Part shown: positions 12,576 to 40,960 of the stretch, in pieces
How positions within the stretch are numbered: position 1 is the first letter of the stretch
How the letters are laid out: each line of letters begins with the position of its first letter
The notes under the pieces: generated by a model
Seen by the model: the letters and a program-made list of their open reading frames with translations, nothing else
Told to the model about the DNA's origin: nothing
Databases searched by the model: none
Position numbers and translations under genes: made by a program
Assembly (NCBI RefSeq): GCF_021134715.1
Contig: NC_060021.1
Coordinates: 1,550,001-1,614,000 of the forward strand
Length of the DNA: 64,000 nt
From: Daphnia pulex
Lineage: Eukaryota; Arthropoda; Branchiopoda; Diplostraca; Daphniidae
Direction: 5' to 3'

Positions 12576-12579
12576 AACC

Positions 12580-12937
12580 TGTGATGATACACAATAACAA
12601 ATTATAAGACTTGTAGAAGTGTTGTATTTGCCGAGAGATGTTGAGGGATACAGCTGCCGGAGACGACTCTGCCGGGAATATGCAGGCGTCGGGCTTTTAT
12701 ACTCGGGAAAGACAAAGAGAAACTCAGGGAAACATATTGCAATACAAACAAAAGTTATAGTCCAAAAAAGAATAACGAAGGAGGGATGTTCGGTCCACTG
12801 GTTCGTTACGGCCAACGCCAACGAGGTGTTGGGGAACATTCACCAGCTTTCCTAGTGGAAGCGTGAAGAAGAGTCAAGCAACCTCGCGGTTGCTTAGATT
12901 TGGAAAGCACATATGGGAGATGGGGCGAGTCAGTACA
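12580..12937 (-). mobile_element. LTR-like sequence, copy 1 (358 bp)
   Basis: On the minus strand it begins TGTACTGACTCG and ends TATCATCACA, the TG...CA form of a long terminal repeat. It contains a canonical TATAAAAG followed by GC-rich sequence, the layout of U3-R-U5. A second copy of the same length and orientation is at 36,581-36,939. On the low-coordinate side it is flanked by AACC (12,576-12,579) and on the high side by AAAC (12,938-12,941). No internal retrotransposon domains (gag, protease, RT, integrase) are seen next to it, so it behaves like a solo LTR. It sits inside a transposase pseudogene on its high side only. Confidence 0.75.
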
Positions 12938-12941
12938 AAAC

Positions 12942-13930
12942 TATGAATATTGTAAGCAATGAATTTCGGCCTGTAAAGTTTCACTGCATCTTTTACAAAT
13001 GTGTGTTTCTGCATATAGAGCATACTTAATACAGTATTAATCATTCACCAAAATTTTCATCGCGACAAGGAAAAGCATAATTTGTTGTACAGCTATGGGT
13101 CTAAGACTTTAAAAATGACAAGGGCAACATAATTCATATGGAGTCTATATTCGGTTGCTTTCATGGGGTAGGTCGTTAAGCGTTCTTGTTTTTTTTTGGA
13201 AATCACAAGCAATAGCAATTAAGTTTGCTAACAAATGATCTACCACTTCTTTAGAAAGTTCAGTCCGTTCAGATCCTCCCTTTACCCATGCTGACATTAT
13301 TTTTTTCATTGTACCCAGGCAAGTCAGGTGCATATAGTTTAATGGTACATTTTTGACATTATCAGGCAAAATTTGTTTTAAAGAAGACCTTTCTTTGTTA
13401 CTGTCATGATGGTTTTTGTACACCCTTTTTTTAAATGAATCATCAGTACGCAATGGTGCGGAAGTTACGGGGTTATGTAACTCTCCCCCGCAAGCAACGT
13501 GCCGGTGCATCACATACCAAACCCACAATAGAGATTCTAATTTTCTTTCCTTCTACGCAAATCCCATCGGAAATCATGTCTTCAGCTTCACGAATTAGAT
13601 TAATAAGATAAATATTCACATTGTCAGGTTTCCTGTACCCGCGATAAATCCCAATTCCGAATAGAAATCCGCCATCTTCACCACATGTTCTGGCCAAAAT
13701 AGGCCAAAACTGACTTCCACGGATTTTTTCTACTGGAAGGCCATCCACGCTAATGACAATTTTGATAACATCCGGGAGATGAGCAACATCAGTTTTAAGC
13801 AAAGTGGCAGAATTATCCCATTAGCCAATCCAAGGTAAACATACTGAACAGGTGGAACATCACGAAAGATAAGTTTACCACGGGGCAATTGGGTTACATG
13901 TGAAACACGTGCAAAGATATAAATGAGGCA
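12942..13930 (-). pseudogene. Transposase fragment, 'IDGLPL' family (relic C, N-terminal/middle)
   Basis: Read down from ~13,930 on the minus strand: V-T-Q-L-P-R-G (equivalent to the RTLL region), then V-I-S-V-D-G-L-P-V-E-K, then S-Q-F-W-P-I-L-A, G-Y-R-K-P, and V-C-D-A-P-A-R. The zinc-ligand (H...C-x2-C) segment is largely deleted. After a frame change come A-P-L-R-T-D-D-S-F, L-N-Y-M-H-L-T-C-L-G and A-T-E-Y-R-L-H-M-N, and the frame ends in A-Y-N-I-H-S exactly where the LTR at 12,580-12,937 interrupts it. The missing next residues (I-H-L-P-G-D-V) are found at the far LTR copy, at 36,576. At least two frameshifts and several stops make it inactive. Confidence 0.8.
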
Positions 13931-14002
13931 GAAATTCTATGTTTTATATTGTGTATTTCAAATGTTTGTTTCATCAAAAATATATTTTTTATTTATTCAT
14001 AG

Positions 14003-15242
14003 GATGGGACATTCTTGGTTGTTGATTTGGAAACCAGCACAGGAGTTGGAGTAGTCATCGTGCCAGATTTCTGGTTTTCTTCCAACTCTTGTCGCTATCC
14101 ACCACTAAGTAGAAAAGGCACTCGTGCAATTACATCCAGAGAAAAACAAGAAGATGATTGGTTAAACTACCCTGCAATTTGCAGAGGGACATTTGGTTTG
14201 TGCATTGCGCTGCAGATTTATTGATATTTCACAACATTTTAAATGTGCTCTTTTGCATTACAGGTTTATATAAGGAAGCAAGAATAAGGAAGCTTGCAGT
14301 AGCAGAGATTGTGTCGGACATTAACATTCCATCATTGAAGTGGTCAATCTTGGAAGAGGAAAACGCACAAGAGGCCCAGAGTTACGTATTCACCAGGAAA
14401 TTCAAGTACAGATGAGGAGGCAACAACTCTGTCCACTCCCCTAGTACCACAAAATCTTTTAGTACGCCAGTCACCAAGTAAGTTTGAAAGTTATGCTATC
14501 ACTATTATTCAAACACATTTTAATAATTACAATTATTTTGAAAAGCTTTTGATCACAAAATATTCTTCCTAGTGGATCGTTTGTCTCGAACAACAATATT
14601 GCAAACAATTCATCAACTGAATCTGGGCCGACCGTTTGGTTATGGCAACACAGGATCTCTAACTTCTCATGGCCATATCGGTTCATCTGTCAATACCTTG
14701 TATGAATATGGTCCGTCTGTTCAGTATGCTCACCCGGGATCATCGAATGGTTTTAGCCAGATTAGTCCATCTGAGAATAAGTCGGCTGAACATGGGTTGA
14801 CTGTTGCGTATTGCGAACCAGGATCGTTAACTTCTTATAGGAATTTTTGTGAATCAAGGAATCTGTCGACCGAAAATAGTGCGTCGCTTAGACATTGATA
14901 CACTGGATCGTCAGTTTCTTTTGGTTATCTTTTTTTCTCCGCCTGTGAATTCACCAACTGACATGTTATGTCTGTGGACCATGATGAGTTGCAATACGGT
15001 AATCTTGGATCCTTAACGTCATTTGCCCATCCTGGATTGTCACCTTCCATTGCCCGACCACAGTCGTCAGCTTCCACTGACCGTTCTAGATCGTCATTTT
15101 TCATGGAACGTCTTGGATCGCCAGATTCCATTGTCCATCCTGGATCGTCAGTTTCCGTAGGCACACCAGAGTCATGCGGTTCTATTGACCGTCTGGTTCG
15201 TCAGGATCAATCGCTCGACCTGGATCGTCAATATCCCAAATA
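14003..15242 (+). pseudogene. Companion gene of the transposase element, with Ser/Gly repeat tail
   Basis: Divergently arranged with relic C, sharing the ~70 bp between them. Exon 1 (14,003 to ~14,195) reads F-L-V-V-D-L-E, V-I-V-P-D-F-W and C-R-Y-P-P-L, ending at a GT donor. Exon 2 starts after the CAG at 14,261 (L-Y-K-E-A-R-I-R-K-L-A-V-A-E) and runs through one frameshift to a GTAAGT donor at ~14,478. Exon 3 starts about 14,571. The 'VVEF...VP..W...YWPP...Y..A..K' pattern is one I associate with the second gene of these elements (from memory, not searched). Exon 3 and beyond consist of ~30-bp degenerate repeats around GGATCGTC, giving Ser/Gly-rich peptide (H-P-G-S-S) in shifting frames, so the tail is decayed. 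Confidence 0.5.
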
Positions 15243-15782
15243 GACTCTTGCTTCAGCGGAGAACATTGACCATGGTATAGGATTGCATGGTACGCGTAGA
15301 TGAGAGGTGCAAATGGACCGAAAACTGGAATCTTCAAAATCGGCAACTCTGGCCGGGTGCGTAACTAGAGGGCCCATTTTAACATGGGGCCTTATGGGAC
15401 TAACTATTTTGAAGCCCTGCATTTCTGTGTTAATTTTTTTTCAACTTGTAACATTTTTTTTTGTGTGTAGAATAAATTTTTTTACAAAGTTCATTTATTT
15501 TATTTTAAATAAAAAATGTCTATATAATAAAAAAAAAATAAAAATGGTCCAAGAATTTCTGACACTCTTGGACTTTCCACTTCTGTAAGACTGTTCCACA
15601 TTGTATATTAAAAGTGGAATTTGTTCTTTGTAAGTGATTGCCATGGTGTTTGTTTTCTGCTCTGTTTACTCATGTATGGCTTGTCAAAGTTTGTAATGCT
15701 GTACGTTATTGTTTAGCTAACAAAACTATAATTAGCTACCGTTTCAAGCCAATGTAATTTAGATTGTGCCGTTTTATGCACC

Positions 15783-18700
15783 ATGCCTGCAAAATGTTGT
15801 GTCCCTAATTGCAAAACTGGATATAGCAGTACCTACAAAGAAAATGCAGATGCAGCCAAGGAATGTCTTATCCTTTTTTCTACTTCAAATAAAGAGTTGC
15901 TTGCTAAGTGGTCTAAAGCAGTTCCTCGTGAAGATTACGTTTTCACAAAGCATTCTAAGGTGTGTATTAAACATTTTGAAGATACTGATGTTCTGAAAGG
16001 ATATACACACTATGTTCATGGCAAGCCAATCTTTACACCATACAAAAGATTTCGACTAAAACCTGATGCTGTTCCCTGCATTTTCCCAAGTAAGAAAGAC
16101 AATTACTTTTATATAGCTTACTGTTATTTCATCAAGGATATGTTGTTAGACTGCCCTGTTTATCTGTCCAAGAATGTAAGAAAAAGGAAATCTCCAACAG
16201 AACGATGTGATGTACCACAGAAAGTTAAACAGCCAAGACTGGATAAAATTTCAGTACCAATATCTCTTAGTGATTCGTTAAATTAAATGAGGATGAAGTT
16301 CAAGAAAATACTGAAATAACCAAAACCACAAATCAAGAAAGCACTACTGACTGGGGAATGGAATTGAAAAAGATTAATCTCCCACAGATGCTGATGTACC
16401 AGGATATGAGAGAACAGTTATTTTCTTTTTTTAAAAACAGATAATGTTGAAATGGAAAATCAATGTAGTAAAAGGAATAACACTTAACAAAAACGCTCTT
16501 ACCTACTGCATCAATGGAGAAAGTTGTACGCCAAAAGATTTACCCAACAGTGTCCTAACAGTTACAGAATTGGAACAAGTAATTGAAACACTTGAAAACG
16601 CCAAGATGTGCAAAGGTGTTTGAATTGCGGATAATTTTTAAAATTCCTCGCAAAATTTTCGCGTCAGATACATGCTATAATGAAGAGAAAAGCAGAAACA
16701 TTTGGAAGTCTTACAAGTGCGAAAACCTCCTCAATTATACAATACAAGATAATTCAAAATCAGTGGAAAGATTCTGCTACTGTGTGAAGTTAAAGGCTTA
16801 TGTGTCAAAATTGCTGTGGAAAGAAAAAAATCAAAGCATTGGGAAAATGGCACAATGCAGAAGGGTTATCAGAAATTCAAAAAAAATAATTGCACGCAAA
16901 CTAAAAAAATTACAGGTCAGTGTAAATGGAATAAGTGAAACAGGTTATTTAAAGTTGAATATAAAAATATTTATTTTAATATTTGCTTTTTGTTATTTAG
17001 GGACTGAAATCTGAGATTACTTCCCTTCAAAAATCAGCAAAGGTAAAATCGAAAAAGGCTTTTGAGGAATACTTATCAAAATTGGACGAAAAACGGTAAC
17101 TATGCTTCCTTTTTAAATCGCAAACTGTTTCCAAACTTCAAACTGGTTTCTCGTTATAAGTGTTTCAATTTTTACAAAATGACATTTATGTTTTGTGATG
17201 AGTATGAAGAGAGGACTTTTCTTATGATGACTGTGACATTATGACTACTCTTCAATTGAAACTATATCCTTGATGACGCGTCTCCATTATATGACTAGAC
17301 TTATGAGAAATACAAAAAGGAATTAATTTAAAAAACTATATTGTTACAAAACACCTACATATGTAGTTGATTCACTTATGCTTCCTGACACATTTCTTTA
17401 ATTGATTAAATATAGGAGCAGCTAGTTATTCAGGCTATTATAACGAAGGCTGAAAGCTCATCAATGAAAGGCATACGTGAACAAGCAAATTGGTTATTTG
17501 AATTCGTCATTTTACGACTGAAAAGCCCCAAAGCTTATGACCATTTACGGCAGGGTTTGTTACCATTACCACACCCAGATACTCTTCGAAGACTAATCCG
17601 GGGAATTCCTGGAACATTTGGACTGAACAAATTTTCGATAGAGTCGATCGGAAAAAAACCTGCATGGAAAATCAAGATGTTTTAGGAGGAGATCTCTTGT
17701 CTGGGATGAAATGACAGTTAAAAAGGCAGTGAATTTCAACAGACAAAAGATGAAATTTGATGGATTCCCTGATTACGGAGAGGACGTGGAACCAGAAAAG
17801 AGGGGAAAGCTTGCTGACCATGCACTTGTGCTTATGTTTCGTCCATACGGGGCCAAATGGGTCCAGCCAATTGGCGTCTATGCAACGAGTGGGGCTGCTA
17901 GTTCTTCTATGCTTCAGAATCTTGTGATTAGAGCCATTGCAGCTCTTCAAACTGTCGGCGCTATCGTCTCTACGTAACGTTTGATGGTCACCAAACAAAT
18001 AATAGGGTGTTCGCAGTCTCTTCGGGATTAGCAGCAAGATGAACAATGTATTTTCATGGATTGATCATCCTACTGAACCAAACGAAAAAATGCATTTCAT
18101 GTTCGATATTCCCAATATTTTCAAGTGCATAAGAAATAATATGATAAAAGTCAAGCATTTTCAAGTAAGTTTAAAGTAATTCAATTTGTTAGATTATTAA
18201 AAGAAAATTACCAATATTCTATACAGTTCGGTGGAGATAACATCGATTGCGATCTTTTTAAGCTGTTTATTTAAACAGAAGAAGAGTTTGCCCTAAACTT
18301 ACACTCTCTCACATTCACCCTGACAATTGGCAAAATATGAATGTAAAATTAGCTACTCAAGTAATGATTTTTAACTTACATTAATATATTTCTTCTGTTA
18401 GCTATTTTCTCATAGCGTGTGGTCGGGATTCAAGTATTTAAGGGAAGAATGCAACCTTACTCAGTTTGCCGGAACTGAACCAATCACGGATATGGTAAAA
18501 CTTCTAAATGATGCTTTTGATGTCCTAAATGAAAGATGTCCTCAAGAGAGCATTAATAATGGAAATTTCGATGATAAAACTGCTGTATGTCAATATAGAT
18601 ACAGTTAAACATTTAAATTTTACTTCATCATACACTTGTGCAGCATCTATTTCATTTATTGGAAAAAATGGATTCGAACGAAGTGTTCCTGAAAACAGAA

Positions 18701-19778
18701 AATCGAACGTCGTTTATATCGCAAACATCCCTGGACGCCCTACGACTCACAATCAGAAGCATTTTAAATTTAACGAAGGATCTACTAGACAATGATTTTA
18801 ATTTTGTGCTAACAGGCAAATTTAACCAAGACTGCATCGAGGTAAATTTACCGGTAATAAATAACAAAATATAGTTTATCTTTAGTTATACCTTTTCTGT
18901 AGAGATTTTTTGGACTTGTCAGAAGTGCCTGTGGGGAAAATGACCATCCATCGATTTCAACATTTCTCCAACTTTTCAGACTACTCAGCATTGTTTTCCA
19001 ATTTAAAGATGCGGTGAGGTCGGAGAATATAGATAAGGGTGAGAGACTATGCCTATTAACGACCTACAAAGACTGCCTTCGTGAAAAGTGTAAGGCAACG
19101 ACACAACAAGCAAGCGATTTGAGGGAGGCGATGAAGGATGATATACTTGAGGCTCTATGCCTAAAAAGAAAACCAGAAGAACTACCTACAACATCAGAAG
19201 ATGCTCAAGTTTGTATTGACATTTCGGTCATTACTTACCCAACAATGGAAGAGCTGGAAAACATGCCATCACCAACACAAGAAGTGGACATCGACAAAAT
19301 CCTGCTAGAAGAAAGAGTGACAAAGGACACAGTATATGAAATATGTGGATACTTACTGTACACGCGAAGGAGGTTGCTGAAATGCAAAGAATGTCTTTCA
19401 ACATTGCAAACCACGGAAGAGCTCCTGCCAGCAGACTTTTACCACCACTGCCTGACCGATATAAAAACAAAAGGTGGATTGAAGTACTGCAAACCACCAA
19501 TGTTTAATTTTTTTCACGCAGTTGAAACAATTTACAAAAAAGAAGTCAATCAAAACAATTTAAGTATCGGAAATTGGTTTCAAAGAGTGATGTCCAAGTT
19601 GTGCAAAGGGAAAATCAATATTGAGTTTTGTTGCAATGAGCAACATAAACTAGAATTGATTCGTGATCTCGTTATGGAATACTTTGTCATTAGGAATCAC
19701 TTTGAAACAAAAACTTGGAAGAGGAACGATGACAACTGTGCAAAAGCAAAGTCAATAAGGAATTTGCTCGATATTTAG
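15783..19778 (+). pseudogene. P-element/THAP9-like transposase gene (copy 1), multi-exon, frameshifted
   Basis: The first exon (15,783-16,089) encodes a THAP zinc-finger: C-x4-C, W, C-I-K-H-F and a D-A-V-P-C-I-F-P box. A 60-base intron (16,090-16,149) joins it in frame to NCPVYLSK. A Lys-rich coiled-coil region lies around 16,840-17,095. The catalytic part runs 17,410-18,860: L-P-L-P-H-P-D-T-L-R-R-L-I-R, V-W-D-E-M, H-A-L-V-L-M-F-R-P-Y and L-T-G-K-F-N-Q-D. It ends with an intact 254-codon exon (19,014-19,778) matching the family's C-terminal region, including C-x2-C (KCKEC). Frameshifts at ~16,285 (after SLSDSLN), ~17,660 (in an A run) and ~18,600 break it. It would bind element ends through the THAP domain and cut and paste DNA in the nucleus. 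I could not find its terminal inverted repeats. Confidence 0.8.
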
Positions 19779-20069
19779 CAAAATTTACTTGATTAATTGA
19801 TACAAAATTGTTCAAACAAATAGTAATGGTGCCAACCGGTCGACCCTCATAGCTTTCTCATACTTTGCTATTCACATACCCCGCCATTGGCGATTGATTT
19901 GATTTGTTGCGTTGTTATTATTTCCTCATTGTTTAGCGTTGAAGTGATTTTACAGAGTTTAGAGTTGTCCATAGCTTATGGTGACTAAGCATAGTTGTTT
20001 TGTTCTTCTTTTTAAATCCCTTTTTCCTCTCTTGCATGTGTACTATTTGTGCTTGTTCGGAACCTGAAT

Positions 20070-22207
20070 CTTCATCTGTTACCGAATGATCTGGTACTAA
20101 AAATCTGCTGTGTAAGTGAAATAACAATCTCAGATGTGTTTACCCTGATGCTCACCTGTAAGCGTTAATACTTTTTGCTAAGAGGATCAAACCAGTTATG
20201 GAAAATGAAGCTGTTTGACGCGTAATCAATTCCTTTTCTAATCGAAATCACTTTGTATATAATAAGTAGCATTTTGATGTCTACAGGTGGCCCTGTTGTA
20301 ATTTGCAAATTAAGGGACAGGATCAAAAGAACTGGTATTGAAGAATAATGGGGACGCAAGGAGTTCAGCTTGGAAAGTGCTTGATCAGAAACATGCCATT
20401 TCTGTGTTACCCACGCAGCCAAATTCCTTGCTCTGTAGTCAGTGATCTGCTTGTTGGAGAGTTTCCGTTCCAGCAAGCCATTTCCCACACACTGAAGAAA
20501 AGTTCAGAGAACGAGTAAGAATCATGACATATCTTTAAGATGAAATCAATTTCTGAATTTTCATTAGTTCTTAGTAGTGAAAGTCTGACAACCAGATATT
20601 ATGCAAGTCTGCTGCTCTGCAAGATGAGAGCTCAATCAGCAAAGATTAAAGTAAGAAACTATCTTGGACCAAAAATCAGAACACAAAATTATTTTCTTAA
20701 AATTGCGGTGCAGTTCGCCTTATGGTTTAAAATGGAGCACACCCAGCAACCTTGTGTGAGAAGCGTGGAAAGCACCATTGAAACCATAAATTATCAAGTA
20801 CGCGACATCTTTATGTCAAGAATCAGAACTGAAATCTGTGATTCACAAGAAGAGTTCGAAAGAACTAGAGACTTGATAAATTTGATTTCTTATGTCATGT
20901 TTGAGGAACTCGGATACAAAGTCGAACATTTGAGCGTCGAAATGCAAATGGACAAGTTTTATGCAATCGAAGAAGTATTTTTGTTTGTAGATGAAATATA
21001 TTTTTTTTATTTTAGTAGGTCTTGCTAAGAAAACGGGGTCCGCCCATAATCGTCTCTATTATATTTAAAGAGATTGCCAGTAATTTCGGAATTGATTTCG
21101 AAATGATCTTGTACGGTGAACCTAGAACTAACTGATGCAAAGGGAAGTACTTCTCAGGTGGATACCGTTTCCAAGGCATTAAATATGACAAAAGTATATT
21201 TGTATTTCTCTAAAATTTTCTAATATAAAAGGCATGGGATACTTGATGACGTATACCTCGTGAACGTAAACGATGGTGGAATCTTAGTCTCTGAAAACCA
21301 ATATCAACCTCCTGTCAATATCGCAAGCTCAAGTGCTCAAGAAGTGGCGGTGCAAGTAATGCGAGAGATGTCAGCTCGTGTGAGAATGCTAGGATCATTT
21401 CACAACTCTGCCGATTGCGTTGATGGCAACAAAAAACAGCTACTGTACAGGTTGGCACACGTAATTTCGCCAAAAGATCCTGATGATGCGAAACAGTATG
21501 CTCAGCAATGCTTGAACCTTGGGTTAGATTTCAATGATGCCATAAAGACGCTACAGGTACACGGACAACCTGTTTCATGAATGGTCAACCATATCTTAAC
21601 ATTTTAAATACAGGAATCCAATGTTTTAGAAAATCCTCTTAAAAAAGACTGCATTAACCGAATGTTGAAAGAGAACAATGAAACTATTGCCGAATTAAGT
21701 AAAGATTGAATATTTTTTAATGGACCAGTAAAATATTTTATTTCTTTAGAGAGCACCCCGCCAGCGAGATCAATTTGTTATATTTGCCGTCGGCATGTCG
21801 ATGAATTACAAACATCAAGCAGAATACGAGCGCAGTAGACCATGTGTAATTGTGTCTTTGTATTTCAATTACATCCCTCCTGAAAAATGGAAGAAGATTC
21901 CTGCCTTGAATGTAAGAGAGAACCAGGCGTGTATTACAAGATCATTGTAAAAAATTCTTCTGTTGGATTTTTTGGCTTTTACGTTTCTCAAGGTAAATGA
22001 GAAAGCAATAAATTTCATTCTGTTTTCCATAACATTTTTCTTATGTCATTAGATCGCCTTGAAGTACACGCAGACCCTGCCCAGGCATATCCTCACTTAA
22101 AGAATATATTTGAGCTGGGGGGCTTTTTTGAAAAGTTTGATAGCCACTGCTTTGTCCCTAATGCGGCTATTATTCACGGTATCCAGATGAAAATGCCGCT
22201 GCCCTAG
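20070..22207 (+). pseudogene. FBXO21-like gene (SirB1-type and YccV-like domains), broken
   Basis: A possible F-box start L-P-N-D-L-V-L-K-I-C lies at 20,076-20,111 before a GTAAGT donor. The main part is exon 20,540-20,974, joined through a 44-base intron to 21,019 (L-L-R-K-R-G-P-P-I-I-V-S-I-I), the SirB1-like core of F-box only protein 21. Exon ~21,232-21,556 carries V-N-D-G-G-I-L-V. Exons around 21,614, 21,750-21,992 and 22,053-22,207 give the YccV/hemimethylated-DNA-binding-like end (F-A-V-G-M-S-M-N-Y-K-H, then C-F-V-P-N-A). FBXO21 is known as an SCF ubiquitin-ligase substrate receptor. Frame breaks at ~21,115 (before the expected RW motif) and at an A run near 21,886, and a weak N-terminal half, suggest a decaying paralogue. 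A minus-strand open frame (20,165-20,488) overlaps its upstream part and is unexplained. Confidence 0.65.
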
Positions 22208-23262
22208 CTTTAGTTCCATAATTGGACCAATCCATTTCAAAGAAACCCAGTCCGAACGTATTTAGCTACTCTAGAGTAGAATTTGTCTTAAAAAGAAAAA
22301 TTCGAAACGCGTAATAATTCTTTGCAATTTAAAGTAACTCTGTAACGTTGGGCAAAAAAAATCGCTCGAAACAAAGTATGTGTAGGAAAAAGAATTGTGC
22401 ATAAATCTGCGCATTACAACTCAAGCATCGGTAGAATAACCAATTAAGTTGACAATTTTTGCCAGTGGGCATCTTAAAAAAACGTTAAAAATAGCTGAAA
22501 ATAAAATCTGGACGCGGAGAATGAGAAGAACGAGGAACATCACTCCAGCATAAGCCCCTACAGAAAGAAGTGAAGACACCAGTGTACCCTACTAAAAAGT
22601 TGCCAGATTTCTGGAACTGGACCTGAGACTCCACATTGCCAGTTCTAAGAAACGATGTTTTGGTGAAAGCATAGATAAAGAAGACTGGTTTCGCATGTGC
22701 TATCCTTTTAGCCCTATCACTACTTACCCCGAGTTTCTGTCTTGCTTGTCCTGCCCTAAGCGGATAAACTGCTGTACTGCACCGAGGCTACGAAGGGTGT
22801 TGCAGACGAAGATTATTTTCCTTCTGTCTTGGTAAAATTATTTGCTGACGTTTAAAAGTCCTAGGTAATTTTGTCATACAAATTTGTATTGAGAAGTCAT
22901 ATTGTATTTAATAATGACGTTTGTCAATTGCAAAATCAGAGAAATCAATTGAATCATTGCAATTGACTAGAAATAAGCAGAGTGTAGAAAACAAAACGTA
23001 CTCTAAAGGGCAGGACAAGAAAGACAGAATCATGCTATAATAGAAGTAACCAGAGTGTGGTTACTTAGAAGAAAGACAGAATCGGGAAAATCGGAGGAAG
23101 GGTAGTAAGAATGCTGGCGACAGTTGCCCATGTTAATTCTCTTATGAAGAGAATAAACCAGTGGTCTTTATCTGTGGTGAAAGTGCCGCCGTAAAACAAT
23201 GGTTACATGACGACATCTGCTGTGTGATGTACGAAGCATGATTTTTAATGTTATTGTCACGC
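22041..23262. repeat. Segmental duplication, copy A left half
   Basis: Begins 12 bases before the last exon of the FBXO21-like gene and is nearly identical to 31,468-32,689. It stops at the P-element insertion (23,263). The other half of copy A resumes at 28,447. Between 22,208 and 23,262 there is no gene. Confidence 0.9.
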
Positions 23263-23645
23263 CAGTGTAATAGAGAGGATGGTGGCGTCGCCCTGTCGAA
23301 ATTCTCCATAAGGCTATGTCCGAGCCGACTCCCTTAAAAAGGGTGACACCTTGCGTATTTTTCCAAGAACTAAACTGAAATTTCCCCGCGAGTCCGTAAA
23401 ATAAGATTACAACATGCTGTCTGTAAAGCAACAAATCTCAAATGTAAAGTTACACTTAAATTATACTACAAATTATACCATAATGCAAATAGTTGATGAT
23501 TTATAAATATTTTTCCTTTTTTCATGAAATGAAATAAATATCAAACTTTAAGTTTTATCCGTTGTATTTGCTGTTTCTTTTTCTTTGACTTTTTCACATT
23601 GAATTTCAGCACTTTTTGGGATTCTTGACAATTTTTTGTTAGTTT

Positions 23646-26600: not shown

Positions 26601-28227
26601 GGCACCAACTATTTCTGCATCCGTAGTTTCATTTGCTGTAGTTACATCTGAGCTGTGAGTAGTTTCTGTGGCTTCTGGTGGTAAAGACAACAATTCATTG
26701 GAATGAGGAACAGGAAAGCTAACAAATAATGCTATGGAAAATTAAAACAGGCATTAAACAAAAATTTAATAAAAATACAAAAAAAAATTTGTAAACCTTG
26801 GACAGCTTGAAGGTTTGTTGTTTTGTAGGTAATTATTTCTGTTTCCGGATCTTGTTGTGTCGGTGAAGCAACCAATTGAAATGGAGTAGTAGTAGGCCTA
26901 TTACAACTAGCAGTGTCTCGTGTGGTTTCAGTCTCAATGAGAAACTTAAAAGGCTCACCAGTCTCCATCAGATCAATGCCACCAATGATTTCTGTTTCTG
27001 GATGTTGTAGGGTTGGTGAAGCAACCGATTGAAATGCAGTAGTAGTTTCACAACTAGCAATGTCTTCTTCTACTGTGGTTTATCTGTCATTGAACAACTC
27101 AAAAGACTCACCCGTTTCTTGTTTGGCAAATTTAAATGCTCACCAGTCTCCATTAGATCCCTGCCAGCAATTATTTCTGATTCTGGATCTTGTTGTGGCA
27201 GTAGAGCAACCGATTTAGATGTAGTAGTAGTATCACAACTGACAGTTTCTTCTTCTACTGTGGTTTCAGCCTCAATTGGCAAATTAAAATGCTCACCAGT
27301 CTCCATTACCTCACTACCACCAATGATTTCTGTTTCAGGATGTTGTAGGATGGGTGAATCAACCGATTTAGATGTAGTAATATTATCACAACTGACAGTG
27401 TCTTCTTCTACTGTGGTTAGAGTCTCAATTGGCAAATTAAAAGGCTCATCAGTCTCCATCAGATCAATGCCACCAATGATTTCTGTTTCTGGATGTTGTA
27501 GGGTTGGTAAAGCAACCGATTGAAATGGAGTATTGCTTTTAGAAACACGACTAGGTGCTTGGTGGCCTGCAATGACATTTAATTTGAAAAATACAAATAT
27601 AGTTACTAAAAACCGATTGAAATATATAACAACTTACTTATAAGTTTCAATTTTTTGTTATGTTGGTTAGGTGGTGTATTCTCGGTACCAACAGTTCTTT
27701 TTAATAGTTTGTGTCTGTTTGCTCCATTACCCAGAGGTGATGGTAGGTTTTGGTGATTGTTGGACATAGAATGAACACTAGAAATTTTAGCTTGTATAAC
27801 ATCACGTTTCTTCTGTTGTGTGTTGACTGAAAACAGTTGTTTCAGAGGAGTACGTTTGACTACTTTGGAAGAAGCTTCCTTTACACCTGTTTCAAGTAAC
27901 GTTAGAACTTACTACAAGTTTTACAGCGCAATAATATTAATTATACGCAAGAAATGTTTAGGAACAGCAGAAATACTTAATCTCCATCTTCCATAGGGAT
28001 GATACACTGTGCCATCTGTAAATCCTTTTAACATCTGACTCATCAAAATGCTTTTCATACAGTAACGATGATTGCTTCAGCTCTGGAATGATTAATTGCC
28101 AACTAGAAAACTTGTTCTTAGGTACACCAAAAATACCAATTCTTTTGTTTTCATCCTGATAATTGACACCACAAAAGAAGCAAGTTTTTCTTGAAGATTT
28201 ACATTTCAACGAATTTGAAAGAGACAT
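23646..28227 (-). pseudogene. P-element transposase gene with THAP domain (inside copy 2)
   Basis: The start ATG at 28,227 opens a THAP exon (C-F-F-C, W, E-K-H-F, then G-T-V-Y-H-P-Y-G-R-W-R-L-S-I-S-A-V-P). A Lys-rich exon (27,650-27,890) and a repeat-bearing exon (~26,730-27,560) follow. Next come a Cys-rich/coiled-coil exon (~26,340-26,700) and the long catalytic exon (to 25,802 and below: L-P-L-P-S-P-S-T-I-R-R-R-L, M-W-D-E-V, H-A-L-V-L-M-F-R-P-Y, V-C-D-G-C). It ends with L-T-G-K-L-N-Q-D, an intron at ~24,375-24,437, and the C-terminal exon with T-N-C-D-D-C. Frame breaks sit at ~28,030, in an A run near 24,920, near 24,735 and in a T run near 23,895. The expected Cys of the THAP C-x2-H pair is Tyr (S-L-L-Y-E-K-H-F). 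It is mostly open but probably inactive as sequenced. Confidence 0.8.
26826..27540. repeat. ~150-bp intragenic tandem repeat, 5 units
   Basis: Units are anchored by CCAATGATTTCTGTTTC-type sequence at about 26,830, 26,975, 27,160, 27,310 and 27,465. On the minus strand the two central units stay in one frame as a ~49-residue acidic/Thr repeat (M-E-T-G-E-H-F-N-L-P-I-E ... P-E-S-E-I-I). It lies between the THAP and catalytic parts of the P transposase, so copy number would change the linker length. Confidence 0.8.
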
Positions 28228-28446
28228 TCCCTTGAATATTACCAGCCATGGGGAAAAAATCGTGGAATGGAATGAAGAATGATTTTCTAGCTTATATTGA
28301 CTGAAGGCTACGCGTGGCGGCGCTGCGTTTAAGGGAGAGCTATTCTGTAACGTCCGCCAAACAATTGAAAAAATATTGAAAAACCTCGGACATAGCCTTA
28401 TGGAGAATTTCGACAGGGCGACGCCACCATCTCCTCTATTACTCTG

Positions 28447-29276
28447 GTCACGCTGCAAAAAAAATATTTCGAAATTACCGTTAAGTGTGCAGTTCCAACG
28501 TGCCTGTCGTCTAAAGGAAGTAGACGTTTTGTTAAGAATCATGTTTCATATTTCTCAACCCCAAAAGATCCAATGCTGTTCACTGAATGGGAAAGTAACC
28601 TTCACCTTTTGGATGGTCAACATCTTTCATCTAAATCGAAAATTTGCAAGCATTTCTCACAAAGTGATATTATTAACAAGCGATCCACGACTCAAGTAGA
28701 CCGAATTCCCGGAGCTGCTTTCCAGATCTAAATCCGGAAAAGGCGTTAAAAATATTAATGTTCGCCTCTCCATGCCGGATTTACCTGCGGTCGCAGAAAT
28801 CAAAATTTTCACCCGTTTAGGAGTTATTTAGCTGTAAGATTCGAGGGCTTTTTTATTTTGCCATAAAATGGGGGGGGGGGGGGACTTTTCAATCTTTTTC
28901 GGAAAAGCGGGGCATCTATATAAAAAACTAATTTTATAAAAAGGTTCATTGCTATCCCAACCACCAAAATCCAAAAGAAATTTCCTATCCGAATTTTATT
29001 GGTTGAGATATGGTCATTTTAGTGAACGCAAAAAACGCAAAAAATTGCTTATCATAGCCCCTTTTTGGGACGAACACGAGAGTAACGCTACGCGTGGTGG
29101 CAGCACCATTTATCGAAGTAGAGGACTTTGAAAAATTAGCAGAAAAACCGAGGATCTAGTCTTATGAAAAATTTATACAAGCTAGTCTTTCATCTTTAGC
29201 ATTTAAAATCTGACTGATCTTTCCATTCCCTTTTGAAAATCACCTAATTTGCCTAAATAAATTTGATATATGTATC
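28447..29276. repeat. Segmental duplication, copy A right half
   Basis: Continues copy A after the P element and matches 32,683-33,531, diverging after TATATGTATCT. It begins with the second target-site duplication and contains the broken THAP frame annotated separately. Confidence 0.9.
28459..28731 (+). pseudogene. THAP-domain fragment, damaged copy
   Basis: Same reading as the THAP ORF at 32,665-32,970 (C-A-V-P-T-C, W-E-S-N-L, I-I-N-K-R-S-T-T-Q). A three-base deletion turns the zinc-ligand C-K-L-H into C-K-H, so the C-x2-H spacing is lost. The P element at 23,263-28,446 inserted just upstream and separates this copy from the ATG used by the intact copy. Ends at the TAA at 28,731. Confidence 0.7.
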
Positions 29277-30220
29277 TTCTACTGGTGGCGATATACAAAA
29301 CTCCTTATTTTTCCCTCTTGGGTCCACTCTCTTCATCACTCAAAACCAAGAAGACGGCGTTCATCCAGTTCCATCTCCTTCACCTGTCTCTGTTGGGGTG
29401 GCACGCGTTTTTATGCGCCAAAGGCAAAGCGACCGCCACCGCCCAGAATATCGATGACCAAGTACTGTTGTGAGTGATCAAGGATGAGAACGTGAAAGAC
29501 CCGATCGGATTTTTGCCCACTGCGATGTCTAATGGTGACATCCAAAAAGTCATCAACATCAGAAACAATACGGCCCATCTAAATCTAAATTCCATAGATC
29601 AGACGGGGATGACTGATCTACCGGCACTGGTCCTTCTGAATCGCAGCGTCATCCAACCTGATGTAGCAGATGAAATCCAGAGGATAATCAACGAAATGTC
29701 GGCCGGGAACCTCGACGGCCTGGTGACCTTCTCTTTTTCATTCACGCCAGCGTTTAATTTTGAAAAAGCCTTTGGCCTATCACAAATTGTATACAGGGTT
29801 ATACTCGAGTACCTAGCAGATGTACTTATGACTCTGTCGAAACTAAATCTTGCAAACATCACTATTGATGTTTTTGCTAACCTCAAGTATATCATGGACC
29901 AGGTCAACACCAACCAGGACTACCTCGCCCCTGGGGGCGGCACCAGAGGCGATGCCTAACTCCTCGCAATCGTTTTTGACACTAGAAATGACAATTCACA
30001 TAATGCATTCCTTCGGTTAAGTACTGATTGGCATCTGCAATTGGATTCCGTTCACGACATCCTGGACGTAATGAACCATCAAGCAGAAGTAGTAGAAGTT
30101 TAGAAGATTATCGATCATCTCGCCACATTAGAAGCGGAAGGCGGTACGGTTACCCAAGAAGATTTAAAATTTTTTGAGTAGAGGATTCAAGGCGTTAGAA
30201 AAGCTATTTTGGCGTAAGAA
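29270..30220 (+). pseudogene. Hypothetical protein relic with HEPN-like R-N-x3-H motif
   Basis: An open frame from 29,474 (GTG) to 29,959 gives 161 residues. Near its start it has V-I-N-I-R-N-N-T-A-H-L-N-L-N (R30 to H35 of that frame), matching the R-[NDH]-x3-H signature of HEPN ribonuclease-fold proteins. Helix-rich sequence follows (D-E-I-Q-R-I-I-N-E-M, V-L-M-T-L-S-K-L-N). The same frame continues upstream through one TGA (29,471) to an ATG at 29,270, and downstream with three stops (29,957, ~30,101, ~30,178), suggesting a longer gene that has decayed. The HEPN call is inference from a short motif; DZIP3-like HEPN proteins are a possible source. Confidence 0.35.
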
Positions 30221-31026
30221 GAGTGTCTCTGTCTCGGTTGAAAATGGTTGTGATTAGACCAGCTGGGGTCTCGCATCTTGTCAAAATAGATGTGATCATC
30301 ATTCTATTCCGCCAGATGAAATACAGGAGAGGAGATTTGTTAACTTTGAGCGGGACAGTGGTCCAATTGGAGTCCCTCGAAAATGGGATAATGAAAGTAT
30401 AGCTCCCAGGGTGAAGTATGTCGAAGTAGCCCTTTTTCTCTTTTCTTTTTGCTTTTTTCTTTTATTTTCAATTTTTTCTTCAATTTTTTTTGTCTCAAGC
30501 GTCACGCTGCGTGATTGTACAGAAAAAATTTCGTAAAATAAAAATACTCTACTTGTTGTATCATTCATTGCCGATAATATGTTTTCATGTCATCTGTTTC
30601 GACAGCGATCACAGATTTTAGACACTGTAACAGTTGAACAAACAAATTCAAACTAACTGGGACAAAAGTTCCTACGCTTTTTGGGTAAGAATTATATAAA
30701 AGAAAGTGGATATAATTATATCCGCTATCGAAAAGAAGAAATAAGGGGTTAAAAATAAAATCAAGATCCAAAAATGGGTCTGATGCAAAAATCAAAGTGA
30801 GTGAAAATAAAAAAAAAAAACATTCGGCCGCAATCACAACGGTTGAAGCAGAGCCACGGATTGAACGAAAATTTGTCGGTTAGACTTTTTTTTAATGTTC
30901 GAGGTTTGAACAATCTGCAATCTCTAAAAGGGCGACAATCTATACTGTGACTAATTATACAAGTCACATTGATTTGTCAAAATAAATAATCTGACAAGAT
31001 TCCAATCGGATTCAAAGTCTAATTTA
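30221..31026. other. Intergenic, low-complexity rich
   Basis: Contains pyrimidine-rich runs (near 30,430-30,500) and no recognisable gene. Two overlapping minus-strand frames at 30,565-30,967 are hydrophobic Phe/Leu-rich by base composition and are not convincing. Confidence 0.5.
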
Positions 31027-31440
31027 CTATAAACCATTGCGAGGAAATGAACCAAATGAATAAGACTTTTTCCCTCCCTTCTGCTCTAACCATTTACATA
31101 TTACAGTACTAATGTCGTAAACATCCTTTTGACTAAGGTTGGGAACAAACACAATATAAACTGCTCCTGTTCTATCAAAAAAACAAAAACAAAGATGAAT
31201 GCTTGCTCCGACTATTCTCAATTTGGAATACCCAAAAATGAATAAGGGCAAGTCAAATGAGTATCGGGTACTAAATCGGGTATAAGCTGACTTGCACATA
31301 GAAATTGCCGAGTCAAAAAAATGTTGATCGTTTCCCGGCTGTCGATAAGAAACGAAGCAAAGGAATAAATTCAGATAATTATCGGAGACATTTCGCCGTG
31401 TCTCCAGTTTATTGCAGATAATAGGGGCTACCATTTGCAT
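31027..31440 (-). CDS. Unrecognised ORF, 137 codons
   Basis: Uninterrupted minus-strand frame with balanced composition: an N-terminal charged part, then D-L-P-L-F-I-F-G-Y-S-K-L-R-I-V-G, then a C-terminal helix (V-Y-D-I-S-T-V-I-C-K-W-L-E-Q-K) and a basic tail. No family is recognised and no signal peptide or membrane helix is clear. It ends just before the segmental-duplication boundary at 31,468. It could be the last exon of a larger gene or transposon protein. Its length is somewhat above chance for this base composition. Confidence 0.3.
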   Translation of the reverse strand: MQMVAPIICNKLETRRNVSDNYLNLFLCFVSYRQPGNDQHFFDSAISMCKSAYTRFSTRYSFDLPLFIFGYSKLRIVGASIHLCFCFFDRTGAVYIVFVPNLSQKDVYDISTVICKWLEQKGGKKSYSFGSFPRNGL

Positions 31441-31479
31441 TTGGCTGCTTTCACCGCACCGAGCAATTTATGTCATTAG

Positions 31480-31634
31480 ATCGCCTTGAAGTACACGCAG
31501 ACCCTGCCCAGGCATATCCTCACTTAAAGAATAAATTCAAGCTGGGGGGCTTTTTTGAAAAGTTTGATAGCCACTGCTTTGTCCCTTATGCGGCTATTTT
31601 TCACGGTATCCAGATGAAAATGCCGCTGCCCTAG
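31480..31634 (+). pseudogene. Orphan copy of FBXO21-like last exon
   Basis: Duplicate of 22,053-22,207 with the same TTAG acceptor and TAG stop and a few substitutions (K-N-K-F-K-L for K-N-I-F-E-L). No upstream FBXO21 exons are present, so it cannot be expressed as part of that protein. Confidence 0.8.
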
Positions 31635-32664
31635 CTTTTGTTCCATAATTGGACCAATCCATTTCAAAGAAACCCACTCCGAACGTATTTAGCTACTCTA
31701 GAGTAGAATTTGTCTTAAAAAGAAAAATTCGAAACGCGTAATAATTCTTTGCAATTTAAAGTAACTCTGTAACGTTGGGCAAAAAAAATCGCTCGAAACA
31801 AAGTATGTGTAGGAAAAAGAATTGCGCATAAATCTGCGCATTACAACTCAAGCGTCGGTAAAATAACCAATTAAGTTGACAATTTTTGCCAGTGGGCATC
31901 TTAAAAAAACGTTAAAAATAGCTGAAAATAAAATCTGGACGCGGAGAATGAGAAGAACGAGGAACATCACTCCAGCATAAGCCCATACAGAAAGAAGTGA
32001 AGACACCAGTGTACCCTACTAAAAAATTGCCAGATTTCTGGAACTGGACCTGAGACTCCACATTGCCAGTTCTAAAAAACGACGTTTTGGTGAAAGTATA
32101 GATAAAGAAGACTGGTTTCGCATGTGCTATCCTTTTAGCCCTATCACTACTTACCCCGAGTTTCTGTCTTGCTTGTCCTGCCCTAAGCGGATAAACTGCT
32201 GTACTGCACCGAGGCTACGAAGGGTGTTGCAGACGAAGATTATTTTCTTCTGTCTTGGTAAAATTATTTGCTGACGTTTAAAAGTCCTAGGTAATTTTGT
32301 CATACAAATTTGTATTAAGAAGTCGTACTGTATTTAATAATGACGTTTGTCAATTGCAAAATCAGATAAATCAATTGAATCACTGCAATTGACTAGAAAT
32401 AAGCAGAGTGTAGAAAACAAAACGTACTCTAAAGGGCAGGACAAGAAAGACAGAATCATGCTATAATAGAAGTAACCAGAGTGTGGTTACTTAGAAGAAA
32501 GACAGAATCGGGAAAATCGGAGGAAGGGTAGTAAGAATGCTGGCGACAGTTGCCCATGTTAATTCTCTTATGAAGAGAATAAAACCAGTGGTCTTTATCT
32601 CTGGTGAAAGTGCCGCCGTAAAACAATGGTTACATGACGACATCTGCTGTGTGATGTACGAAAC

Positions 32665-32970
32665 ATGATTTTTAATGTTATTGTCACGCTGCAAAAAAAA
32701 GATTTCGAAATTACCGTTAAGTGTGCAGTTCCAACGTGCTCGTCGTCTAAAGGAAGTAGACGTTTTGTTAAGAATCATGTTTCATATTTCTCAACCCCAA
32801 AAGATCCAATGCTGTTCACTGAATGGGAAAGTAACCTTCACCTTTTGGATGGTCAACATCTTTCATCTAAATCGAAAATTTGCAAATTGCATTTCTCAGA
32901 AAGTGATATTATTAACAAGCGATCCACGACTCAAGTAGACCGAATTCCCGGAGCTGCTTTCCAGATCTAA
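32665..32970 (+). CDS. Small THAP-domain ORF, 101 residues
   Basis: Starts M-I-F-N-V-I and continues into C-A-V-P-T-C-S-S-S (C-x4-C), a central W (T-E-W-E-S-N-L), C-K-L-H-F (C-x2-H), and a terminal P-G-A-A-F that could be a degenerate AVPTIF box. All four zinc ligands of a THAP finger are present. THAP domains bind DNA and occur in P-element transposases and host regulators. Here the domain stands alone and could be the first exon of a lost transposase or gene. No splice partner was identified downstream. The damaged copy is at 28,459-28,731. Confidence 0.55.
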   Translation: MIFNVIVTLQKKDFEITVKCAVPTCSSSKGSRRFVKNHVSYFSTPKDPMLFTEWESNLHLLDGQHLSSKSKICKLHFSESDIINKRSTTQVDRIPGAAFQI

Positions 32971-33528
32971 ATCCGGAAAAGGCGTTAAAAATATAAAAAA
33001 AAATATTCATGTTCGCCTCTGCATGCCGGATTTACCTGCGTTTGCAGAAATATGAAATTTTCCCCCGTTTAGGAGTTATTTAGCTGTAAGATATTCGAGG
33101 TTTTTTTTATTTTGCCAGAAAATGGGGGGGGGACTTTTTAAACGCTTTTTGGAAAAGCGGGGCATCTATATAAAAAACTAATTTTATAAAAAGGTTCATT
33201 GCTATCCCAACCACCAAAATCCAAAAGAAATTTCCTATCCGAATTTTATTGGTTGAGATATGGCCATTATATTGAACGCAATAAAACGCAAAAAAATTGC
33301 TTATCATAACCCCTTTTTGGGACGAACACGAGAGTAATGCTACGCGTGGTGGCAGCACCATTTATCGAAGCAAAGGACTTTGAAAAATTAGCAGAAAAAC
33401 CGATGATCTAGTCTTATGTAAAATTTATATAAGCTAGTCTTTCATCTTAAGCATTTAAAATCTGACTAAGCTTTCCATTCCCTTTTGAAAATCACCTAAT
33501 TTGCCTAAATAAATTTGATATATGTATC

Positions 33529-33610
33529 TATATATAATAAAACAACAAGCTTTTGTGGGAGGGGCCTGTGTCTGTGTCAACAATGTGTCAACACAGGCTC
33601 CTTTCCCAAA
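33529..33610 (+). mobile_element. Helitron-like 5' terminus fragment
   Basis: TCTATATATAATAAAACAAC followed by AAGCTTTTGTGGGAGG is closely matched, in reverse complement, at 41,692-41,640 and its array copies. A TC start followed by TATATATAATAAA is typical of Helitron 5' ends; no Rep/helicase gene or 3' CTRR hairpin was found, so this is tentative. Confidence 0.35.
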
Positions 33611-36310
33611 ATGGAACATGCCCAAACATGCCCAAACAAATCACCACCAGTAATTAAATAATACAAATATTCAAAAAGAATTTTGTTTCCAATTAAAATT
33701 TATAATTTATAATAACAATTGATTCCTCACACACCACTCCCGACACCGGACTACCTTTGGCTTTGGTTTTGCTTTTTATAATTCTAGATTTAATCAATTT
33801 AATTGTTTCTGGTTTCTGCCAGAGTCCAGGCTTCTGAGAATGTCATCTGGAAGAATACTGCGTTCTTGTTTAAGTTTGTTTTTTGTTTTCGATACTCTCT
33901 TTTCGGTGGCAAAAAACCTCCATATCTTTGATTTTTCCGAATTTTTCTTTCCATTACATTCATTTTTCATCACCATAATAGGGGAGACCGGGGCTATGTG
34001 GGACACTTTTTTTCTTTTCTAAAAACTTTTTTTCTTAAGTAAATTATAATAATAAAAATAAGTTTATTTTTTCATTTATCATGTTTATTTAGAAAGGTAA
34101 GTTCTTAACGGATAAATAATGCTGCTGGTAAAAGAAGAAAAGTAAAAAGATGTATATTTAATCGAAGATACGTTAAGGTACGTCTACACTAGCAGTTTTT
34201 ACAGACATACAGACACCGAATTACGACCGTAACTTGTCTGTAAAAACGGCTATTGTAGACGCAGCATTAGATAGATATTAATACACAAGCTTTCATCTTT
34301 TTTGGATGAGAACTGTACGTACACCAAACATACTTCCGGTACATTCAGTGAATGTACTTGATGTATGTCCATTGTATATGTTTTTCATATACTGTTGGGA
34401 TCAAAGAATCTCTTTATTTTTTATCCATTTATGTACATACTGGTAGCGTACCCTGAACATCCACATGGGATGAGGGACGCCACCATTTTGTTGTACATAC
34501 CTGGGATATCGCTTGGATAGCGCGTCTTAGTAGGGAATGCGAGCCGAATCTTCCAAAAAATTCGTCTTTCCAATGTTTTTTCGGCGCCCAAAAAAATTTC
34601 CAAACTTTTCGGCGCCGAAATCGACGGAAAGCCGAAAGTCAAAAGCCGAAAACTGAACAGCCAATCACAGCGTTCCATTTTTGATGCGCAAATAATTTTT
34701 GATATTAGGGCAACATCAGCAATGCCAAATCTGTCTGCTGTCATTTTTTTCGTCATTCTTTTCTTATTTGTAGTGTGAATAGTCCAAGACGAAATCGAAA
34801 TTTTTCCGTCTTTCGGTTTTTATTTTTCGTCTTTCGGCTAGCCGAAAAGACCATAGTGTGAACGCGCCTTAAGGGAATGATAAATTAATTTTAGAAAAAA
34901 AATCGCGTCAAAATCGGACGACTCAGGTGGCAGCACCATCGATATTTCCGAACGCTAAAACCACCCTACTTTGAACTATGCGCTTGGGATGACGTCACAA
35001 GTTTTTCTAATTTTTATTCGATCATAATATAGTCCGATATACTTAGTTTAAGTATACAAAAGATGGTAATCCTAACTTAAGTAGAAAAATTGAAAAAATT
35101 CCATAAAATGCAAAAAGTGTCAAAATCACTCTTTTTTTAAAATTCATAGAAAAGGTGTTGACACTTTTTTTTGAAAATTCACATTGTATAGCTTAATATG
35201 TCTTCAAAAACATATCAAAAAATTTGGATGTGTGTTATTTTTGTTATTGAGTTATAACAGTTTTTCTGTGATATGGTGAAAATTAAAAGTTCGATGGGAT
35301 TTTCTATAGTAAAAAATTTAAAAAATATAACGTGGGACACGGGGCTTAAATGTACAGGGCAGTTTTAATATGTACAATTTGTTTAACATTTCTGAAATAA
35401 ATACAGCGTATTATAAATGATGTTTTTTTTTATCCCATAAACTTTTTTTATCCCTGAATTTCTGATTAATTCGGCGATTTTTATGGGAACTACAAAAAAA
35501 TTCGAATCGGAAAATTTTTTGAACTTTAGTTTACAATTTTTTTATACTTCTATAAATATTTTAAAATTCTATAAATATTTCTAATCTTCTATAAATATTG
35601 TAAAACCAGATAGCTATTTGATGCGTTTTCTTTCTAGTTTAAGGTGGTAGTTTTATTTTATAAAAAATGTGTTGATATAGATGAAAAATGAAGTATTTGA
35701 TAATTTAGTTTCTTTAATGTTGTTTGGGTCCAGGTTAAATGGTAAAGCCATCTGTTTCCAGGTAAACGACCAAAAAAGATCAAAAAAGGACATTTTTATT
35801 TTTTTTATTGTATCTCCACTGATACTCAAAAGAATGAATAAAATTACAGTACCTCTGAAAGAGAAATGAATTTCTTTTTCACTAGTGGGTCTTTTAATAA
35901 ATGTAATCGATCCCGGATGAACCATTTTCCTCCTGATTCTGTTCCGTTTAACAAAAAAAAAATTTTTTCTTCATTTTTTTCTCTTGATATTTAATTAATA
36001 ATAACTATTAGGCCTACATATGAAAGCCAGCTTTTACAAAAAAAGAAAAAACTAACCCAATGTAGAGAAGTGCATTAGAATCACTCCTATATAATTTTAT
36101 TAATTTTTCTATTTAAAAAATTGGTAGCGAAAAAAAAGTGTTCCATTGCCACATTTATCCATATACATATATTCCATATATGGGACACTTTTTTACGCTG
36201 TTATATAGCCCCGGCTACAATATTTTCAATAAGCAAAACTTTGCGATCATAAGTGAAAACGCAGTTGTCAGGAACCTTGATTGATATGGTCCATCTTCAG
36301 TATGCATTTT
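33611..36310. other. Repeat-rich interval without genes
   Basis: Starts a possible large TA-flanked repeat at 33,979 (GGGGAGACCGGGGCTATG) with a related CCCCGG inverted motif near 36,206. Includes AT-rich low-complexity sequence and a CGGC/GCCGAAA-rich stretch (34,570-34,850) containing TTCGGCTAGCCGAA. Short open frames here are composition artefacts. Confidence 0.45.
34186..34261. repeat. Short MITE-like hairpin
   Basis: Arms of about 26 bases (CGTCTACACTAGCAGTTTTT and onward, against GTCTGTAAAAACGGCTATTG and onward) pair with two mismatches around a ~27-base loop. Confidence 0.7.
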
Positions 36311-36576
36311 TTAAAACTGATCAACCATTCTATATCCAGTATCAAAGTCCCAGAATTGTGATAACAAACTAAGAGAGGTCAATTTATTCAAAACTGTGCT
36401 CTCCTTAACCCTTGTATGATGATCGTCTACTTTCCACATTCGATGAATAATCTGTTCCAATGGTTTGCCACCACGTCTGACCAAATTCTTCATTTTTTGC
36501 AGCTTGTTCTCAAAGGGGAATGAACTGAAGTTAATCCAATGGGCCATAGTTCACCACATCGCCAGGCAAATGAATC
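36311..36576 (-). pseudogene. Transposase C-terminal fragment, 'IDGLPL' family (relic D)
   Basis: Begins on the minus strand right at the LTR edge with I-H-L-P-G-D-V-V-N-Y-G-P-L-D. After a frame shift it continues F-S-S-F-P-F-E-N-K-L, R-R-G-G-K-P-L-E-Q-I-I-H-R. It is the exact continuation of relic C, which stops at A-Y-N-I-H-S beside the other LTR copy. It is truncated and frameshifted. Confidence 0.8.
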
Positions 36577-36580
36577 AAAT

Positions 36581-36939
36581 TGTGATGATACACAATAACA
36601 AATGATAAACTTGTAGAAGTGTTGTATTTACCGAGAGATGTTGAGGGATACAGCTGCCGGAGACGACTCTGCTGGGTTAAGACAGGCGTCGGGCTTTTAT
36701 ACTCGGGGAAGACAAAGAGAAACTCAGGGAAACATATTGCAATACAAACAATAGTTATGATCCACTAGAGAATAACAAAGGAGGGATGTTCGGTCCACTG
36801 GTTCGTCCCAGCCAACGCCAACGAGGTGTTGGGGAACATTCACCAGCTTTCCTAGTTGTGGAAGCGTGAAGAAGAGTCAAGCAACCTCACGTTGCTTAGA
36901 TTTGGAAAGAACATATGGGAGATGCGGCGAGTCATTACA
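36581..36939 (-). mobile_element. LTR-like sequence, copy 2 (359 bp)
   Basis: Same ends and TATAAAAG as copy 1 at 12,580-12,937, in the same orientation, with scattered substitutions and small indels. Flanked by AAAT (36,577-36,580) on the low side and AACC (36,940-36,943) on the high side. The flanks pair with those of copy 1 in swapped fashion; see findings. The 36,944-37,334 stretch beyond shows no gene. Confidence 0.75.
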
Positions 36940-37334
36940 AACCCATAATTTCTTAAAGGAAATCAAAGAAGGTTGAGAGAAAATTGGATTAAAGTTAATT
37001 TACATATGATGGTTCGTCTCAAAAAGCATATATGCAGCTTGCGCACGTGACAAGAGCCGTAATTGATACCCGAAGAAACATTGCAGCAGACGAAGCAAAG
37101 TTGTTTGAGATCGCCTTCGTCTTCGGAATTATTACTCTGCGTGTAAAATAGAAATTGTTTTTTTTAGACAACACGGCAACCCATTAAAACAGAAGAAAAC
37201 TGTGTAAATCTCAATCGATGCTTATAAATAAACAAAAGGTCGCACACAAGTGATCGACAAAACACCCTAAATAGTGTTTTGGTAAACTATCGACAAAAAA
37301 TTTCATTTTGGGCCCAGATTGTTGTGAATTAGTT

Positions 37335-40465: not shown

Positions 40466-40466
40466 A

Positions 40467-40780: not shown

Positions 40781-40960
40781 AAAAAATAAATACATAAATA
40801 AGACTGGCGTGGTTCGGATACGTGGTTATAGGACTAAAAGATGTGTCAAAGGATGTTGTTTCACCAGAGCATCCCGCCGCGGATGGCGCTAGTATAAAAA
40901 ATCACGTTTTTGTTTAATTACAATTAAACGTGAAAATCAATCAAATCAAAACAAAATGTT

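Follow-up and report, generated by a model that had tools for sequence, protein, structure and literature searches.

In cattle, Durkin reportedly described in 2012 a serial translocation through circular intermediates, in which circles re-enter chromosomes in a case that is said not to rest on LTRs. A cassette with the same architecture as the Daphnia locus presented here, including the exchange of target-site duplications, is the SVA-bounded lcr16a cassette of hominines (PMC9132208). As in the Daphnia block, a pair of transposable elements bounds the segment, the outer duplications come from one insertion site and the inner duplications from another, and parts of genes now lie at its opposite end, the order that a permuted circle would give. 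The element subfamilies of the hominine cassette show chimerism and its pre-integration sites are given, whereas no parent LTR copies are known for the Daphnia block; the Daphnia case further differs in that the transposable element is a solo LTR, the host is an arthropod, and the assembly yielded no second copy of the segment among the candidates scored. At the Galileo inversion 2z3 of Drosophila, too, ectopic recombination is shown by exchanged target duplications at two element copies; there, chimeric copies in opposite orientation bound an inversion (PMC2775673), whereas the two Daphnia LTRs are direct and bound a displaced block. In yeast, extrachromosomal circles form from LTRs (PMC4751563); that work shares with the circle proposed for our locus the involvement of LTRs, and differs in being about circle formation from Ty LTRs. 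Within the portions of the literature that our searches reached, no on-topic report was found that links Daphnia, extrachromosomal circular DNA and transposable elements, nor one on solo LTRs, circular DNA, swapped target-site duplications and ectopic recombination.

The window, by which we mean the whole stretch of 64,000 nucleotides of Daphnia pulex DNA that was analysed, contains two LTRs arranged as direct repeats of 358 and 359 bp (LTR1 at 12580-12937 and LTR2 at 36581-36939, both with the sense strand being minus), which enclose a displaced block of 23,643 bp at 12938-36580. LTR1 has TGT...ACA ends and a TATA-like box on the minus strand. The outer target-site duplications are identical (AACC at 12576-12579 and again at 36940-36943), and the inner ones, AAAC at 12938-12941 and AAAT at 36577-36580, differ by one mismatch. 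The inner AAAC adjoins the N part of a transposase pseudogene, and the inner AAAT adjoins its C part. An earlier note on this DNA had given these coordinates and flank letters, and both were confirmed by re-reading the sequence. Because both junctions lie exactly at a repeat, an assembly misjoin through the repeated LTR has to be considered; we regard it as very unlikely, as the repeat is only about 360 bp long, its copies differ at about 7% of positions, and the contig that carries the window spans 12.0 Mb in a searched genome of 133,188,837 bases and 13 contigs.

The nature of the LTRs is best seen from their relatives. Searching the genome with LTR1 yielded 22 matches, both window copies counted. 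The best other copy, C5:1003746-1004943, has two LTRs of 97.2% identity around a 491-bp inside and, on the sense strand, GTTG at both outer sides and TGT...ACA ends. It is the single family copy with both ends intact, and the 4-bp duplication is seen there. Immediately 5' of its 3' LTR lies a purine tract, GGGAAGGGGAG, which recurs, in places altered, before related LTRs at loci L077, L078, L082 and L083, and a primer-site-like sequence, AATTGGTGAACGTGCCAG, follows the LTRs at L083 and L084. The two-LTR copy with its TGT...ACA ends, the GTTG/GTTG duplication and the recurrent purine tract together identify the family of the window LTRs, as judged from sequence, as an LTR retrotransposon. For D. 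pulex, 251 of the intact LTR elements are reported to have TGT/ACA ends and 4-6 bp duplications (PMC2996953). The 491-bp inside has nine matching rows genome-wide, itself counted. As separate observations, an open stretch of about 90 codons runs on the sense strand within this inside (L003 1855-2345; C5:1004100-1004590), and at C12:2819000-2821800 (L083) and C12:2586000-2593500 (L077) related LTRs and inside pieces are chained, as if elements of the same family had recombined.

The inner sides of the window LTRs read TTCATAGTTT and ATTTGATTCATT, and neither a purine tract nor a primer-site-like sequence was found beside either LTR when the LTR flanks were inspected, for which reason both LTR1 and LTR2 are classified as solo LTRs. 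The same inner sides indicate that the two do not belong together as 5' and 3' LTR of a single element. An element inserted at AACC, with its inside replaced by nested insertions, would account for outer flanks that match at four of four positions; with inner sides that lack tract and primer-site-like sequence and inner ends that are two complementary parts of one gene, this history is largely refuted, and its probability is close to negligible.

LTR1 and LTR2 are 92.2% identical over 361 columns with gaps and 93.5% identical over 356 ungapped columns, and they are sister copies with a support of 0.995 in a tree of eight LTRs. Private differences fall in 16 columns of LTR1 and 11 of LTR2, with one ambiguous, and they show no clear switch point and no signal of a crossover within the LTRs. 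Neither parent LTR has a known independent copy. The sister relationship and the exact AACC duplication outside both LTRs could also suggest that a 24-kb cassette of LTR, block and LTR was inserted whole by the retrotransposon integrase, which would itself have made the AACC duplication, comparable to bacterial insertion sequences. If true, this would be a composite LTR transposition, in which host DNA was carried within an animal germ line to a target that held no LTR beforehand. We consider it extremely unlikely, since 6.5% of the ungapped columns differ between the LTRs, primer site and purine tract would be missing for the reverse transcription of such a unit, and a permuted or tandem state before the insertion would still be required.

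The four-base flanks deserve a cautious reading. In 200,000 random draws of window positions, the chance of a four-of-four flank match was 0.0059, that of a match at three or more of the four positions 0.063, and that of both together 0.0004. The flanks agree at seven of eight positions in trans versus five of eight in cis, and the flanks of LTR1 itself, AACC and AAAC, agree at three of four as well. The letters alone are thus weak evidence, favouring a swap only modestly, and it is the gene halves that carry the argument for the swap.

These halves belong to a decayed, probably DUF4218-type transposase encoded on the minus strand; stops and frame changes mark it as a pseudogene. Its N-side pieces (12938-13820) end in ...YNIHS at the border of LTR1, and its C-side pieces (36416-36580) start with LIHLPGDVVNYGPLD at the border of LTR2. 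Nine ways of joining the two were tried, with zero to eight nucleotides removed. Only the removal of four nucleotides restores YNIHS|LIHLPGDV codon-exactly; removing one nucleotide leaves one extra residue, removing seven leaves one residue fewer, and the remaining six joins are out of frame. An 81-aa query spanning the join gave 71 rows in the genome, of which three are the window transposase's own pieces; the best match among the others, C7:5699975-5700190, is 51% identical across the join. A subset of the 68 other rows from this joined-protein search, the 11 paralog loci L034-L044, was compared at the join point, and ten of them are gap-free there, L036 being the exception; the rows of L037 and L038 are identical, and L042 carries a stop at the join point.

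The tentative assignment to a family comes from the paralogs. The C-terminal frames of all three paralogs compared match PF13960 (DUF4218), one just above the curated cut-off and two below it, and the window's own transposase pieces matched no family in Pfam. We take DUF4218 to be tied to CACTA-like transposases. At the 3' limits of similarity between pairs of paralogs, no terminal repeat was recognised. A dispersed repeat (35333-36146), with copies of about 69-90% identity, overlaps or adjoins the transposase 3' end. At the DNA level, no match elsewhere in the genome was found for the N side (12938-15265) among the 40 of 78 candidates scored, nor for the C side (36148-36580) among the 40 of 123 scored, in a search that leaves out very common words. 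A finer DNA comparison of the halves with the paralogs gave weak matches of 34-74 nt at 72-82% identity at 10 of 17 loci, some of them being the same copy.

Had LTR1 been an ordinary insertion into the gene, the continuation LIHLPGDV would be predicted in its left flank, whereas it actually begins exactly at LTR2, and the joined-protein search listed no match between 7994 and 12579. Two further paralogs of the transposase family were observed farther left of LTR1 on the minus strand, at 5715-5909 and 7856-7993.

Two halves could also derive from different members of the transposase family, and the earlier note had named clearly different origins of the halves as evidence that would speak against its reading. 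We fitted each half onto a tree of 12 paralogs, the 15 that were aligned less three whose N parts were short. Branch 3 suits the N half best; on it the C half falls 1.42 lnL short of its own optimum (AU 0.55). Branch 4 suits the C half best; on it the N half falls 1.28 lnL short of its own optimum (AU 0.34). Each half's best branch is hence acceptable to the other, and a derivation from clearly different members is not supported. At AU below 0.05, the branches excluded number 10 of 21 for the N half and five of 21 for the C half, all five among the ten, leaving 11 of 21 acceptable to both. The placements are compatible and a common lineage is not rejected, in a test of limited power because the short C half rejects just five branches. 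A quick joint tree separated the halves, with node supports of 0.148, 0.061, 0.857 and 0.443 along the path, and the rank correlation between the identical-residue counts of the two halves over 14 of the 15 paralogs was null (rho -0.08, p 0.79); both results are given little weight, since the two rows share no columns and the aligned lengths vary.

The exact four-nucleotide join, the ten of 11 gap-free paralog loci, the compatible placements, and the finding of no second DNA copy among the candidates scored are strong evidence that the two transposase parts were one gene, which would once have been split by one LTR and now be permuted around the block. Two propositions of the earlier note are well supported by these data: that an LTR formerly lay inside the transposase gene, through the four-nucleotide join and the gap-free paralogs, and that the flanks were exchanged by recombination between LTRs, mainly through the gene halves at opposite inner ends.

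The N part extends inward from LTR1, whereas the C part emerges from the block at LTR2, so that the gene is circularly permuted with its break at the LTR. This order might have arisen in the following way. A solo LTR of a small LTR-retrotransposon family would have sat inside a DUF4218-type DNA transposase gene with the target duplication AAAC, and the region bearing the gene would have turned into a circle of about 24 kb. The LTR of the circle could then have undergone homologous recombination with another solo LTR from its own subfamily, resident at an AACC site, and a single crossover would have opened the circle within the LTR and placed the block in the chromosome. The expected outcome would be two chimeric LTRs, with the AACC copies outside, AAAC and AAAT inside, and the gene circularly permuted. 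We hold the recombination of an LTR-carrying circle into a second solo LTR at the AACC site to be the best explanation and a probable one. That the donor molecule was circular rather than tandem or inverted is plausible, and we infer both its origin and the chimeric state of the two LTRs from this model. The circle is the favoured route among several, since other histories of two steps explain the local arrangement just as well: two inversions in succession, or copying from a tandem array since lost, would produce the same picture at this locus.

In the first of these histories, the LTR in the gene and the LTR at the AACC site would once have stood in opposite orientation on one chromosome, where an ectopic crossover would have flipped the intervening segment and traded their duplications; a later, unrelated inversion would then have turned around the right flank together with the LTR and the C part, making the LTRs direct and 23.6 kb apart. 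Exchanged duplications at inversions mediated by transposable elements are documented for Galileo (PMC2775673), and the history involves two events, as many as the circle model, while requiring no extrachromosomal molecule. The second breakpoint, however, must happen to leave the junctions direct and only 23.6 kb apart, and no breakpoint of an inversion was recognised within the block in an analysis confined to this one genome; two inversions seem to us possible but rather unlikely.

The circle model and its rivals were also confronted with the rest of the genome. The block was searched in six pieces, 12938-15500, 15300-22040, 23325-28384, 29278-33529, 33530-34999 and 35000-36580, with 40 of 78, 40 of 82, 13 of 13, 40 of 262, 40 of 189 and 40 of 123 candidates scored, respectively. 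The rest of the block duplicates parts of 31468-33529, with 98% identity for 22041-23262 and 93% for 28447-29277. Among the candidates scored, only repeated sequences match parts of the block elsewhere in the genome, at 65% to 100% identity and highest in short pieces, and no collinear second copy of the whole block was found. The joined outer flanks were not found as a contiguous empty site elsewhere in the assembly; their search returned a single match at 79% identity, to the right flank, and five short matches to repeats. Together, the piecewise search and the flank search revealed no circle junction, donor locus or empty site in this assembly among the candidates scored.

These results bear on a tandem donor, in which the transposase region with its LTR would have been duplicated elsewhere and a break in the solo LTR at the AACC site repaired by copying from one LTR of the array to the LTR of the next unit. 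Tandem duplication does occur nearby, at 40462-59114, with a 7.5-kb unit in about 2.5 copies of 99.4% identity. Copying leaves the array in place, yet no second copy of the transposase halves was found in the assembly among the candidates scored, and we consider a tandem donor quite unlikely.

A further candidate, that the circle was a single transposon with abutting terminal repeats, was rejected on the best 25 of the 27 pairs of inverted repeats of at least 20 nt within 14500-36580. The only near-abutting pair among these 25, 34181-34207/34235-34261, is not the circle junction, because it lies within a 0.5-kb dispersed repeat with 97% copies elsewhere. This repeat (34036-34537), which thus contains a near-abutting internal inverted repeat, is matched elsewhere, among the candidates scored, at 97% identity by five copies of about 500 bp and a shorter one of 388 bp; one of the six lies on the same contig some 82 kb away (C5:1666794). 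The longest inverted-repeat pair within 14500-36580 bounds a separate element of 5.2 kb.

This 5.2-kb element (23262-28447) is framed by terminal inverted repeats of 63 bp (CCAG...CTGG), carries a TNP-like RNase H domain (PF21787) and is presumably P-element-like. It sits in one of two 2.05-kb direct repeats; the other, at 31468-33529, is its empty counterpart, in which TCACGC marks the join. A copy of the element's leftmost 494 bp inside the repeat, 97% identical, occurs at C1:12149-12643. On the plus strand at 15732-19778, a frame with a THAP domain is followed 2.6 kb on by a frame matching a TNP-like RNase H C-terminal domain, and the two perhaps represent a second TNP-like transposase within the block. 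Outside the block, the tandem array at 40462-59114 comprises about 2.5 units of 7.51 kb, and its two full units each contain a degraded paralog of the split transposase (44217-44363 and 51729-51875). A 0.5-kb sequence just left of the array (39963-40459) recurs inverted at 43582-44078, 51092-51590 and 58605-59104, and 5579-5855, left of LTR1, is 94% identical to 44081-44357 in the array. An insect-cuticle-protein domain lies at 62995-63801.

The reading of the Daphnia block as a product of LTR recombination is well supported. The block can be regarded as the fossil of a segment relocation, whose scar of two solo LTRs, traded 4-bp duplications and a permuted pseudogene names the repeat responsible. 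Exchanged duplications at solo LTRs, combined with inner flanks that fit together, provide a signature that can be scanned for in any assembly. As direct repeats, LTR1 and LTR2 should in some lineages have recombined with each other and restored AACC-LTR-AACC. If the arrangement is confirmed in Daphnia haplotypes, the re-entry of circles by recombination between transposable elements would extend from the SVAs of hominines to the LTRs of a crustacean.
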